Positions 1 to 48,373 of a stretch of 64,000 nt of DNA are shown piece by piece. This DNA is from Olsenella massiliensis (GTDB lineage: Bacteria > Actinomycetota > Coriobacteriia > Coriobacteriales > Atopobiaceae): positions 1-64,000 of the forward strand of contig NZ_LN898210.1 of NCBI RefSeq assembly GCF_001457795.1. Direction: 5' to 3'. A model generated the notes under the pieces. The model searched no databases. It was not told the DNA's origin and saw only the letters and a list, made by a program, of their open reading frames with translations. The position numbers and the translations under genes are program-made. Each line of letters begins with the position of its first letter. Within the stretch, counting starts at the first letter, position 1.

Positions 1-104
1 GGCATCCGAAGTGTAAACTAGTCAGGCTGTGTTTCTTGAGGGGACAGCTGTGTCGAGTGCCCGAGCTCGCCCGGCTGCCTTGAGCGGCGCGGCAACCATA
101 GGAT
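1..104. other. Disrupted sequence upstream of the AddB fragment
   Basis: All three forward frames contain stops here (for example TAA at 14-16, TAG at 19-21, TGA at 37-39, TGA at 81-83, TAG at 99-101), yet the AddB-like reading frame that begins at 105 should be preceded by several hundred residues of helicase-like sequence. The segment is therefore a decayed or frameshifted piece of addB, a junction with an inserted element, or a poor-quality sequence end. I recognise no transposon end. Confidence 0.5.
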
Positions 105-1532
105 GTGGTCCGCTGGGGAGGGCGCGACGAGCTGTCCCTGCGCAGGCTCGCGTTTGCCTCCCTGGTCAGGCTCCCTCGCCGCCACCTGGCGCTCGAGCGC
201 TCGCTCAGGGACGGCACGCTCAAGGAGCGCTGGCCCTCCGTCATGCTCACCGAGCTCGTCTCCTGCTATGGCGCACAAGATGCGGGGGACGTGGGCACGT
301 CGCTCGAAGTGCTGACCCTTGACGAGTCTCATGCCGAGGCAAACTGCTCTCCCTCGGGCAGGGCGTCCCGTTTCGTGGGCACGGAGGCCCTCGCGGCGTC
401 GGGGCACGTCTCCGCGCGGCTCCAGGGCCAGGTCGTGGTGCCCAACGAGGGCAGCGACCGACTTCCGCACGGACGTCCGCTCCTGTCGGCCTCGCAGCTC
501 GAGAGCTACCTCGAGTGTCCCTACAAGTGGTTCAGCCTTCGCAGGCTGGGCCTACAGGAGTCGGACGCGGGCTTCACGTCCATGGAGATGGGGACCTTCG
601 CCCACCGGGTGCTGGAGGTCACGCATAGGTCCCTGCTCGAGGAGGCCCGCCAGCGCCTGCTCGCGAGCCGGGGACTCGACCCGCTCTGCGAGCTGCCCCT
701 CACGGAGCGCATGGGGGCCTCGCGCGTCAGGGAGGGAGACGACGCCGCCCTGCGCCATGCCCAGCAGATCCTCCTGGACGAGTTTGAGCTTCACCTGAGG
801 CATCAGTTCCTGAGCCGGGGGCGTCGCGCCCGCTCCCAGGCGCTCGTCGCCCACGACGCGACGGACGAGGGGCAGATCGAGGCGCTGCGTCAGGACCTGC
901 TCTCGACTCTCGAGTACGAGTCGGGCCTGTTCGTGGGCTTTGAGCCGCGCCTCTTCGAGTGGGGCTTCGGCCGCGACGGCGAGCTCGTGGACTACGCGGG
1001 CTGCTACCTTCAGGGGACGGTGGACCGAGTGGACGTCGACGCGCACGGCCAGGCGGTCGTCATCGACTACAAGCATCGATCGCCCGGGTCGTTCGTGGGG
1101 GAGTACGGCGTCTTCGACAAGGGCGGGCCGAACGAGGGCGAACCCTTCGCGCTGCCGCGACGCGTGCAGTCGCTCATCTATGCCCAGGTGGTGAGGAGAC
1201 GTTACCCCGACCTGCGCATCGCGGGTGCCGTCTATCTGGGGAGCAAGGGGGCCCACGCCCTCGCGGGCGCCGTCGCGGCCAATCTCGCCGACCGCGTCTT
1301 TGGCTCGCGCGCCCCCGCCGCCTCCGCCCTCGCCTCCATGTGCGTCCCCGAGGATCTCAGCTTTGGCCAGGACGGGCGGCGAGGCCTGTCGGCGCTGCTC
1401 GACGCCACCGAGGACGCCATCGCAGAGAAGGTCCGCGAGCTCATGGCGGGCCGCATCGAGGCCGACCCCGTCGATGACGCGGCCTGCCAGTACTGCCCCG
1501 TCATGAACTGCGACAAGAGGAGGTCGTCGTGA
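105..1532 (+). CDS. AddB-like PD-(D/E)XK nuclease, C-terminal part only
   Basis: This is the nuclease half of an AddB/RexB-type subunit of the recombination helicase-nuclease that resects double-strand breaks. The visible part is 475 residues, against about 1,000-1,150 for full AddB. The iron-sulphur staple is intact: Cys138 in ECPYKWF and the C-terminal cluster Cys461-x2-Cys464-x4-Cys469. The PD-(D/E)XK core is seen as VIDYKHRS near residue 320. The region from RDELSLRRLAF onward looks like the end of the helicase-like portion. GTG at 105 is only the first possible start after an in-frame TAG at 99-101; no convincing ribosome site precedes it. The gene overlaps addA by 4 nt, the usual operon arrangement. 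Either the gene is broken or the window starts at a sequence artefact. The nuclease assignment is firm; functionality is doubtful. Confidence 0.75.
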   Translation: MVRWGGRDELSLRRLAFASLVRLPRRHLALERSLRDGTLKERWPSVMLTELVSCYGAQDAGDVGTSLEVLTLDESHAEANCSPSGRASRFVGTEALAASGHVSARLQGQVVVPNEGSDRLPHGRPLLSASQLESYLECPYKWFSLRRLGLQESDAGFTSMEMGTFAHRVLEVTHRSLLEEARQRLLASRGLDPLCELPLTERMGASRVREGDDAALRHAQQILLDEFELHLRHQFLSRGRRARSQALVAHDATDEGQIEALRQDLLSTLEYESGLFVGFEPRLFEWGFGRDGELVDYAGCYLQGTVDRVDVDAHGQAVVIDYKHRSPGSFVGEYGVFDKGGPNEGEPFALPRRVQSLIYAQVVRRRYPDLRIAGAVYLGSKGAHALAGAVAANLADRVFGSRAPAASALASMCVPEDLSFGQDGRRGLSALLDATEDAIAEKVRELMAGRIEADPVDDAACQYCPVMNCDKRRSS

Positions 1533-38602: not shown

Positions 38603-40051
38603 ATGGCTGACGAGCGGCTCAAACAAGAGGTCGACGAGTACGTCGATGAGGTGTGGGAGGACGTCGTCGAGGACATACGCTCCCTGGTGAGGATCCGCTC
38701 CGTCGAGGACCTCTCGCATGCCACGGCAGCAGACCCCTGGGGTCCCGCCTGCCACCGGGCGCTTCGTCAGGCCCTCGCGATCGCCGAGCGCCTGGGCCTT
38801 GAGGCCCATGACTGCGAGGGCCGCATCGGCTATGCCGACCTGCCCGGCCGCTCCGAGCGCTATCTGGCCACCATCTGCCACGCCGACGTCGTGCCCGAGG
38901 GCCGGGGCTGGACGTTCGACCCCTTTGACGTGACGCGCAAGGACGCATGCCTCGTGGGCCGCGGCGTGCTGGACGACAAGGGGCCCCTCGTGCTCAGCCT
39001 CTACGCTGCGCACTTCTTCGTCCGGCGGGCGCTACGCACGGGCGAGCGCCTGCCGCTCACCCTCCGAGCCATCGTGGGCTCGGAGGAGGAGACGAGCATG
39101 CGTGACGTCGCCTACTATCTCGAGCGTCACCCCCAGCCCGAGTTCCTCTTCACGCCCGACGCCGACTTCCCGCTCATCTGCGGCGAGAAGGGCGTCTTTC
39201 AGGGTCGCTTTTGCTCCGTCGCCACCGTGGGCGGGCATGACGCGCCCATCGAGAGCATGGACGGCGGCACCGTGCCCAACGCCGTCTGCGGGCGCGCCGA
39301 GGCGGTCGTGAGGGTGAGGGCGGCAGACCTTCCCGGTCGCGAGCGCATCGATGTCACGGACCTGGGCGACGGTCGCTCGCGCGTGGTCGCCCGGGGCGTC
39401 GGCGGGCATGCCTCGCTCCCCGAGGGCACGCTCAACGCCATCGGCCTCTTGTGGGCGTACCTGCTTGATGCGGGCGTCGTTCCCGAGGAGCTCGCGCCCT
39501 TTGCCGAGCTCGAGCTCAGACTGTGCGCCCAGGGCTTTGACGGCTCCTCTCTGGGGGTCGCCTGCTCGAACGACCGCTTTGGCCCCCTCACGCTCATCGG
39601 CGGGACGCTTCGCACGGAAGGGGGGCATCTCGTGCAGACCTGTGACTGCCGCTACCCCGACGCCATCGACGCGCACGCCCTCGAGCGGGCGCTCGCACGG
39701 CAGGCCCAGGCGCGCGGCGCCAGCTTCGTCGTCACCGGCGTGAAGCCGCCCTTCCACATCGACCCCGAGAGTCCCGAGCTGCGCTGCCTGCTCGACACCT
39801 ATGACGAGTTCAGAGGCACGACGTCTCGCGCCAAGGTCATCGGCGGCGGCACCTACGCCCGCAAGTTCATGAGGGCCTGCGCCTTCGGGCCTCATGAGCC
39901 CGCGGACCCCCTGCCCTCGTGGGCGGGCCCCGAACATGGGGCCGACGAGGCCATCGGCGAAGGAACGCTCAGGCGTGCCCTCAAGATCTACATCGTGTCA
40001 ATCTCGCGACTCATGCGCCTGCATGCCCAAGACGGCCGTCGCAATGGCTGA
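38603..40051 (+). CDS. Sapep-family M20 dipeptidase (first copy)
   Basis: A 482-residue zinc-dependent cytoplasmic dipeptidase of the PepV/Sapep group. Metal ligands appear in ICHADVVPEG, GRGVLDDKGP, VGSEEETSM and TPDADFPLICGEKG, and the C-terminal GGGTYARKF motif holds the last ligand region. A lid domain lies between. AAGGAG stands upstream of ATG at 38603. The stop overlaps the start (40044) of the disrupted radical-SAM gene. A paralog with the same order of motifs is at 46961; the two likely differ in dipeptide preference, which suits an amino-acid-fermenting organism. Confidence 0.92.
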   Translation: MADERLKQEVDEYVDEVWEDVVEDIRSLVRIRSVEDLSHATAADPWGPACHRALRQALAIAERLGLEAHDCEGRIGYADLPGRSERYLATICHADVVPEGRGWTFDPFDVTRKDACLVGRGVLDDKGPLVLSLYAAHFFVRRALRTGERLPLTLRAIVGSEEETSMRDVAYYLERHPQPEFLFTPDADFPLICGEKGVFQGRFCSVATVGGHDAPIESMDGGTVPNAVCGRAEAVVRVRAADLPGRERIDVTDLGDGRSRVVARGVGGHASLPEGTLNAIGLLWAYLLDAGVVPEELAPFAELELRLCAQGFDGSSLGVACSNDRFGPLTLIGGTLRTEGGHLVQTCDCRYPDAIDAHALERALARQAQARGASFVVTGVKPPFHIDPESPELRCLLDTYDEFRGTTSRAKVIGGGTYARKFMRACAFGPHEPADPLPSWAGPEHGADEAIGEGTLRRALKIYIVSISRLMRLHAQDGRRNG

Positions 40052-41170
40052 CGAGCTCGCGTCCCTTGAGCCGTATGAGCGCTGCCGGCTCTGTTGTCCT
40101 TGAGGACGTAGGTGCCGTCCGTGATGGTCGAGCCCCTCTCGGCGGTGAGCGCGGTCTTGAAGCCGGTCATCGTGAGCGTGCCCGCGCCCGTGGGGGGGGC
40201 GCCGCCCTTGAGGACGATGCCGTCCACGCCGTTGTCGCTACCGGGGGCCTGCGCGCCGGCGGCCGCAACGGAGCGCGTCGCGCCCGCGGGGACCTCGCGC
40301 CTGCGCGTGGCTCGCTGCGCCCTGCACTTCTGGGAGGAACCGCCCATCTCGGGCGAGGCGGGCTCCGGCGCCATCTTCTTCACGGGCTGCCCCTTGCGCT
40401 GCGTCTTCTGCCAGAATCACGGCATCTCCCAGGAGGGCTTTGGCCTCGAGGTGTCCTGCGAGCGGTTGGCGGCCATGATGCTCGAGCTCGAGGCTCAGGG
40501 TGCGCTCAACATCAACCTGGTGACGCCCCTGCACTTTGCGCCTCAGGTCAAGCTCGCCGTGCGCGCCGCCCGCGCGGCGGGGATGAGCCTGCCTGTGGTG
40601 TGCAACACCTCGGGCTACGAGACGGAGGAGGTCGTCTCGCTGATGTCGGACGTCGTGGACGTCTGGCTCACGGACTTCAAGTACGCGTCCCGCGAGCTGG
40701 CGGGTCGTCTCTCGCACGCCGCCGACTACCCCCTCGTCGCCGAGCGGGCCCTCCTTCGGATGCTCGCGGGGCTCAGGGGGCGCGGGGGCCGGCGACTTGG
40801 CGAGGACGGGCGCATGCTCCAGGGCGTCATCGTGCGCCACCTGGTGATGCCCGGGCAGACGGACGACTCGCTCAGGGTGCTCGATCGCGTCTGGGCGCTC
40901 GGCGGCAACGAGCTGGACCTTTCGGTCATGAACCAATACACTCCCAACGAGCGCTGCCGCCGCGAGGGGGGAGACCTCGGGCGCGCGGTGACGGACGAGG
41001 AGTACGAGCGCGTTCTTGACCATGCCGACGACCTGGGCTTTGAGCGCCTATGGTGGCAGCAGGGCGGCACGGTCTCGGAGAGCTTCGTCCCCGCCTTTGA
41101 CGCGACGGGCGTGCGCGGGGCGGAGCTGGGACGACAAGACGTCGGACAGGATGGGGGCAGCCATGAGTGA
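40044..41170 (+). pseudogene. Radical-SAM protein (PflA/PflX-like), interrupted near its N-terminus
   Basis: The downstream part is a radical-SAM enzyme of the pyruvate-formate-lyase-activase-like group. LRVARCALHFWEEPPISGEAG leads into the cluster motif TGCPLRCVFCQN (C-x3-C-x2-C), and later NINLVTPLHF, DVWLTDFKY and DLSVMNQYTP. The family normally begins with a short Cys-rich segment. Here it is found from ATG at 40044 (overlapping the dipeptidase stop): ELASLEPYERCRLC. It then runs into a stop at 40101. The expected continuation PGACAPAAATERVAPAG resumes only at 40241 in another frame. About 146 bp of foreign, reverse-oriented coding sequence lie between. The catalytic domain could still be translated from an internal start (for instance 40112), without the N-terminal cysteines. 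The 3' end overlaps the next gene by 8 nt. Confidence 0.75.
40095..40240 (-). other. Inserted reverse-strand fragment of a surface-protein-like gene
   Basis: On the minus strand this segment encodes a repetitive beta-helix-like peptide, GIVLKGGAPPTGAGTLTM followed by TGFKTALTAERGSTITDGTY and VLKDN, typical of large bacterial adhesins or autotransporter-like surface proteins rather than of radical-SAM enzymes. Two internal repeats share cttgaggacg, and GTTGTC occurs near both ends (40093-40098 and 40231-40236). A run of eight G (40192-40199) is present. It interrupts the radical-SAM gene. No other part of the donor gene is in the window. Confidence 0.6.
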
Positions 41171-45968: not shown

Positions 45969-46044
45969 TGGTGGAGATGAAGGGGTTCGAACCCTCGGCC
46001 TCAGCGTTGCGAACGCTGCGCTCTCCCAGCTGAGCTACATCCCC
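45969..46044 (-). tRNA. tRNA-Ala (anticodon CGC)
   Basis: A 76-nt cloverleaf with encoded CCA end. Acceptor stem GGGGATG pairs with CATCTCC (one G-U pair), the D arm is GCTCAGCTGGGAGAGC, the anticodon stem-loop CAGCG-TTCGCAA-CGCTG gives anticodon CGC reading GCG alanine codons, and the T arm contains GGTTCGAACCC. It has its own terminator and reads away from the HAD gene. Confidence 0.95.
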
Positions 46045-46801: not shown

Positions 46802-46960
46802 GAGGCTCCTCTCTCATGTCACGACCGCGTTGTCGTCCCACCAGTCTATCAGAGTCAGCCCCTCCGGCCCGCTGGTCGAGGGGTTGCGCGCCTGTGGCAT
46901 GACGTCTGATATCCTCAGGAGGACCTCTGTCACGACACATCCCAGCGAGAAGGGAACGCA

Positions 46961-48373
46961 ATGACCGACCCCGACATCAAGGACCAGGTACGCGCCTACG
47001 TCGATTCCATTTGGGAGGACGCGGTGCGTGACCTGGGAACGCTCGTCTCCATTCGCTCCGTCGAAGACCTGAGCCAGGCCGAGGAGGGCAAGCCCTACGG
47101 CCCCGAGTCCTATCGCGCGCTCAAGGCCGCCGTCGACATCGCCGGTCGTCTGGGCCTGGACGCCCATGACTGCGACGGCCACATTGGCTATGCGGACCTG
47201 CCGGGCGCCAGCGAGCGTCAGATCGCGATGATCGCCCATACCGACGTGGTCCCCGAGGGCACCGGCTGGACCTACGACCCGTTCACGCTGACGCGTAAGG
47301 ACGGGATGTTGATCGGCAGGGGCGTCCTGGACGACAAGGGGCCGTTCGTCCTCTCGCTCTACGCTGCCAAATATTATGCAGACCAGGTGCGTCGTACGGG
47401 CGAGCCCTTGCCCTACACGCTGCGCGTCATCATCGGAAACAACGAGGAGACCGAGATGGCCGACGTGGAGTGGTATCTCGAGCACTTCCCCCAGCCTGAG
47501 TTCTGCTTCTCGCCCGACGCGAACTTCCCGCTCATCTGCGGCGAGAAGGGCGGCTACTCCGCCACCATACGCTCCAAGGCCATAGCCGACGTCATCGTCA
47601 GCTTCGAGGGCGGCACGGTGGGCAACGCCGTGGCGGGCGAGGCGACGGCGCTCGTCAGGGCGCAGGCCTCAAAGCTGCCCGCCACCGATCGCATCGACGT
47701 CGAGGACGCCACGGACGGCCTCGTGCGACTGACCGCCCACGGCATCGGAGCGCACGCCTCGACGCCGCAGGGGTCCGTCAACGCCATCGGACTTCTCGTT
47801 TCCTACCTGCTTGAGCATGGGCTCTGTTCCGAGGCCGAGCGGGACTTCCTCGAGCTGGAGGCGCTCGTCTTTGGCTCGACGGACGGCTCGACGCTGGGCA
47901 TCGCCGCGTCCGACGAGCTCTTTGACCCGCTGACCTGCATCGGAGGCACGATGCGCACGGTCGATGGCCACTTTGAGCAGACCATCGACTCGCGCTATCC
48001 CACCTCCATCACCAGCGAGCAGATCACCGAGCGCGTGGGGGCGCTGTGCCGCGCGCATCACTGCGAGCTCACGGTCGACCTTGACATGGTCCCCTGGTCA
48101 ACGGACCCCAGCTCCGACGCCATCCGTGCCTGCGTGGGCACGTACAACGAGTACACCGGTCGCAAGGCCGAGCCCTTCACCATCGGCGGCGGCACCTATG
48201 CCCGTCACTTCAAGGCCGGCGGCGCCTTCGGGCCCAACGACCCGGCCTTCCCTCTGCCGGACTGGGTGGGCGCCGAGCACTCGGCGGACGAGGGCTTCGC
48301 GGAGGAGCAGTTCAAGCGTGCCCTGGAGATCTACATCGTCTCTCTGGGCAAGCTCATGGCGCTCGACTTCTAG
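46961..48373 (+). CDS. Sapep-family M20 dipeptidase (second copy)
   Basis: A 470-residue paralog of the protein at 38603. The same metal-binding motifs are present: IAHTDVVPEGTGW, GRGVLDDKGP, IGNNEETEM, SPDANFPLICGEKG and GGGTYARHF. The start at 46961 is preceded by GAGAAGGGAACGC. The two copies are about half identical by eye, so the duplication is old rather than recent. Both probably cleave dipeptides, including those with N-terminal D- or beta-residues as described for PepV-type enzymes. Confidence 0.92.
   Translation: MTDPDIKDQVRAYVDSIWEDAVRDLGTLVSIRSVEDLSQAEEGKPYGPESYRALKAAVDIAGRLGLDAHDCDGHIGYADLPGASERQIAMIAHTDVVPEGTGWTYDPFTLTRKDGMLIGRGVLDDKGPFVLSLYAAKYYADQVRRTGEPLPYTLRVIIGNNEETEMADVEWYLEHFPQPEFCFSPDANFPLICGEKGGYSATIRSKAIADVIVSFEGGTVGNAVAGEATALVRAQASKLPATDRIDVEDATDGLVRLTAHGIGAHASTPQGSVNAIGLLVSYLLEHGLCSEAERDFLELEALVFGSTDGSTLGIAASDELFDPLTCIGGTMRTVDGHFEQTIDSRYPTSITSEQITERVGALCRAHHCELTVDLDMVPWSTDPSSDAIRACVGTYNEYTGRKAEPFTIGGGTYARHFKAGGAFGPNDPAFPLPDWVGAEHSADEGFAEEQFKRALEIYIVSLGKLMALDF

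Follow-up and report, generated by a model that had tools for sequence, protein, structure and literature searches.

The window, by which we mean all 64,000 nucleotides analysed here (positions 1 to 64,000 of contig NZ_LN898210.1 of Olsenella massiliensis, hereafter C12), carries a radical-SAM gene whose 5' end is occupied by sequence that reads well only as part of a surface-protein gene on the opposite strand (Table 1). Upstream lies a Sapep-type dipeptidase gene (38603-40051), the stop of which overlaps the radical-SAM ATG at 40044. The frame opened by this ATG soon reaches a stop (40101-40103), and the radical-SAM body picks up again at LRVAR (40301). The CxxxCxxC motif, here GCPLRCVFC (approximately 40387-40413), and a match to profile PF04055 (E 9.6e-11) together place the gene in the radical-SAM superfamily; the NCBIfam matches to its protein are all under their cut-offs. 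In its undisturbed part it is an ordinary member of the superfamily, resembling the PflX-like or glycyl-radical-activase-like proteins with an N-terminal CxLCPRxC, and differing from them in that this N-terminal motif is absent, which is so in this assembly only. The dipeptidase gene is the first member of a paralogous pair (38603-40051 and ca. 46910-48373; 68% DNA identity between 38693-39999 and 47051-48342) that flanks the block of radical-SAM and pncB-like genes.

Table 1. Features of the radical-SAM locus and of the start of the contig (window positions)
Feature	Position	Strand	Basis or remarks
Misplaced scrap opening the window's contig (C12)	1..121	+	Exact copy of C13:713265-713385, the intergenic region between rpsJ and rplC
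Native start of the radical-SAM gene (MADELASLEPYERCRLC)	40044..40094	+	Homologs share the YxxCxLC segment
Left microhomology CGCTGCCGGCT, 11 bp, common to native gene and donor	40080..40090	+	Donor alignment
Misplaced inverted fragment of a surface-protein ORF	40095..40292	-	Donor alignment; native length expected from homologs
Error tract	40193..40292	.	11 differences from donor, all donor A/T to window G/C
Remainder of the radical-SAM gene, intact	40293..41170	+	Open to the stop at 41168-41170, with CxxxCxxC motif

The foreign stretch and its donor

Window positions 40080-40292 form an inverted, ungapped match to contig C13 of the same assembly (G000:C13:582076-582288), with 200 of 213 positions identical (94%). 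The matching sequence belongs to the 5' part of a 1629-codon stop-to-stop frame, whose protein carries a Listeria-Bacteroides repeat domain and has a C-terminal end that, as we take it, resembles a cell-wall anchor. This donor gene is present once at full length in the genome, on a contig other than that of the window, and in relatives its protein family is encoded by an ordinary gene. C13:720980-723439 holds weaker paralogous matches, and a search of the genome with the whole donor gene as query found no further insertion. A reading made from the letters of the window (the sequence-only reading) had held that a reversed piece of a surface-protein gene disrupts the N-terminal Cys segment and that the donor adhesin gene would be found elsewhere in the genome: the donor has indeed been located, and the disruption is borne out as far as the letters in the file are concerned.

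The details are different from those first proposed. The foreign stretch begins just after CRLC (around 40095) and donor homology continues until 40292, so that its length is about 198 bp and not 146 bp. From CxLC to LRVAR the homologs have 21 codons (63 bp) against 206 bp in the window, some 198 of them donor. Judged by these lengths, about 63 bp of native codons are gone, replaced rather than displaced, and the N-terminal segment and its continuation are not merely separated as had been supposed. The residues PGAC (40241-40252), once expected to be that continuation, are donor antisense (CCGGTGACCTGC) with two substitutions and occur in none of the aligned homologs, nearly all of which show PRxC. 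Two copies of GTTGTC (40093-40098 and 40231-40236) had been regarded as repeats at the borders; the donor has both, and the second is internal to the insert. What the borders do share is the 11-bp match on the left, which is either chance or microhomology, and GGGGA on the right, where we infer the native side.

Microhomology-mediated (template-switch) insertions are a known class of real rearrangement, to which the locus is alike in its inverted ectopic copy, its short border sharing and its clustered errors. Such an event would consist of a template switch at CGCTGCCGGCT, the inverted copying of about 200 bp of the surface-protein gene and a switch back with deletion of about 63 bp; an error-prone polymerase, changing only A/T to G/C, would have to be assumed for the second half. 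A donor that exists in the genome, short sequences shared at the borders and errors confined to one side of the insert all speak for it, but we consider it improbable, since the remaining radical-SAM frame is intact and without sign of decay, and for two further reasons that concern the adapters and are given below.

Hardly any credence can be given to a programmed cassette, a shufflon or a diversity-generating system that shuttles surface-protein segments. That an inverted surface-protein segment is present at all is the sole point in its favour; against it, there are just one donor and one misplaced copy genome-wide, neither a duplication nor repeats at the borders, a metabolic gene as the target, and relatives that are devoid of the insert. 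The changes within the insert also affect A and T alike (on the donor's sense strand, 5 of the changed sites are A and 6 are T), unlike the adenine-specific mutagenesis of a diversity-generating retroelement, which is thereby rejected.

The altered half of the insert is sharply delimited. No difference from the donor occurs over the 100 bp from 40093 to 40192, and the bases at 40091-40092, which account for the two differences on the left, are native to the radical-SAM gene. In the error tract all 70 G/C sites are unchanged as against 11 changes among the 30 A/T sites (p = 4e-7, with position alone considered). Of the 11 changes, 10 alter the amino acid when read in the donor frame (T->P, L->P, L->R and similar). 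Two relatives have homologous surface-protein genes, and at the changed sites these agree with the donor and not with the insert; the insert is therefore the altered copy and not a functional allele. On account of the same agreement and of the excess of nonsynonymous changes, another functional surface-protein allele is rejected as the source. A mosaic of donor and native radical-SAM sequence was likewise rejected as the origin of the 11 changes: with the tract aligned to 29 radical-SAM homologs, 57 of 100 random A/T->G/C controls fitted as well or better.

Another history would start from an insertion of some age: GC pressure in the genome would have degraded it, a recent gene conversion from the donor would have restored its left half, and an internal start, GTG (40112) or ATG, would now give a shortened protein. 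The frame from 40112 to 41170 is open, and the window's fourfold-degenerate sites have a G+C content of about 88%, so that drift from A/T to G/C could occur. This history is nevertheless very improbable: the contrast between G/C and A/T sites in the tract opposes it, it requires two coincident events, and the N-terminal Cys motif is found in every complete homolog.

Homologs in relatives and the rest of the assembly

Of 60 relatives, 57 have a homolog of the radical-SAM protein. The set compared comprised 29 loci from these relatives and 80 loci from named Atopobiaceae and neighbour genomes; one of these 109 begins mid-gene at a contig edge and was left out of the complete loci. In all 108 complete loci CxLCPxxC...WEEP is uninterrupted, its two elements being separated by 26-28 residues, and the foreign segment is in none of them. 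Since the motif is intact throughout, the segment is private to this assembly, and an insertion conserved among homologs, the finding that would have spoken against the sequence-only reading, is ruled out. A native radical-SAM N-terminus was not found elsewhere in the assembly, in which contigs C1 and C5-C8 are all N. These are five small contigs (1.2-1.8 kb) that read N throughout.

Adapters, errors and other misplaced fragments

The assembly retains synthetic sequence in many places. The 38-bp palindromic Nextera mate-pair junction adapter occurs at 15 places, with three further partial copies (contigs C4, C9, C10, C11, C12 and C13), and its 19-bp half gives 29 matches genome-wide (up to two mismatches) as against 0 for the reversed control. 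Contig C9 opens with part of this adapter, while contig C2 contains an Illumina P5 adapter. In the latter, a run of T precedes the P5 adapter within the first 220 bases, a low-GC stretch (45%, versus about 68% in the window) that is probably junk or a contaminant.

Because the true sequence of the adapter is known, every mismatch in its copies counts as an error. The 15 aligned full adapters have 50 errors in 570 bases (8.8%): 36 A/T->G/C, 6 W>W, 5 S>W and 3 S>S. The right half of the insert, with 11 changes in 100 bases, has a similar rate (p = 0.45), and its spectrum (11 of 11 A/T->G/C against 36 of 50) gives p = 0.054; the two error spectra are compatible, and the agreement extends to this half alone. 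This correspondence in rate and kind is the first of the two further points against a real template switch, for an error signature equal to that of synthetic adapters is where the locus departs from that class of rearrangement.

The second is that other misplaced scraps in this assembly adjoin synthetic adapters. Between two adapters at C13:277065-277224 lies a 51-bp fragment inverted from C13:667143-667193, in which 6 bases are wrong (A/T->G/C in 4 cases), together with a 30-bp fragment of C12:279415-279445. The adapter at C13:403962 adjoins an exact 42-bp copy of C13:406327-406368; the source is 2.4 kb away, and sequences about so far apart are brought together by a mate-pair circle. The window itself opens with a scrap (Table 1) that joins a nuclease-like gene via a shared 15-bp GAGCTGTCCCTGCGC (window 1-143); the contig start being a misplaced 121-bp copy, the apparent start of that gene (105) is chimeric. 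Fragments out of place, brief shared stretches and noisy bases thus characterise the assembly in general. A scan of 60 kb of the window turned up no further short ectopic match of high identity save 45969-46044, a 76-bp match (86%) to C13:362141-362216 that may be a shared motif or a further misplaced scrap.

Origin of the insert and its meaning

With a known donor, homologs that are free of the segment, adapters spread widely through the assembly, scraps linked to these adapters and a shared excess of A/T->G/C errors, we regard the insert as very probably a wrong gap fill or a chimeric read and not a biological feature. Of the three origins offered by the sequence-only reading, the evidence favours the chimeric assembly over illegitimate recombination or a shuffled cassette, and a gene split by a reversed piece is unsupported as a statement on the genome of the organism. 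A short piece of the radical-SAM gene, at its 5' end, would have been misassembled when one or a few low-quality or chimeric surface-protein reads bridged a gap, overlapping the contig edge via CGCTGCCGGCT. The most likely step is mate-pair scaffolding followed by gap filling, in which one or two unsupported reads, one of poor quality, may have been used to close a scaffold gap at a difficult position rich in GC. High misassembly rates at gap-closing sites have been reported for gap fillers, GapCloser being called greedy (PMC9575681), and a pipeline of Nextera mate pair, SPAdes, SSPACE/Opera and GapFiller has been published for other bacterial genomes (PMC5225428).

The locus shares with artefacts of gap filling and chimerism in Nextera mate-pair data the junction adapters in contigs, the short misplaced fragments adjoining them and a raised single-read error rate, but differs in that the patch has no internal adapter remnant. 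Two observations count against an artefact: the insert and its surroundings, indeed the whole window, are free of adapters (up to 3 mismatches), and the left half is identical to the donor over 100 bp, so that the sequence looks bad only in part.

For the reading of this genome, the adapter copies offer an internal yardstick of sequencing error by which other odd patches can be judged, and genes that span leftover junction adapters will appear broken. Since the assembly has both adapter-linked and adapter-free misplaced fragments, what look in it like broken genes, chimeric proteins or short inverted duplications should not be taken for evolution. The insertion would gain biological importance only if it proves real in the reads; the organism itself presumably carries an ordinary, intact radical-SAM gene.
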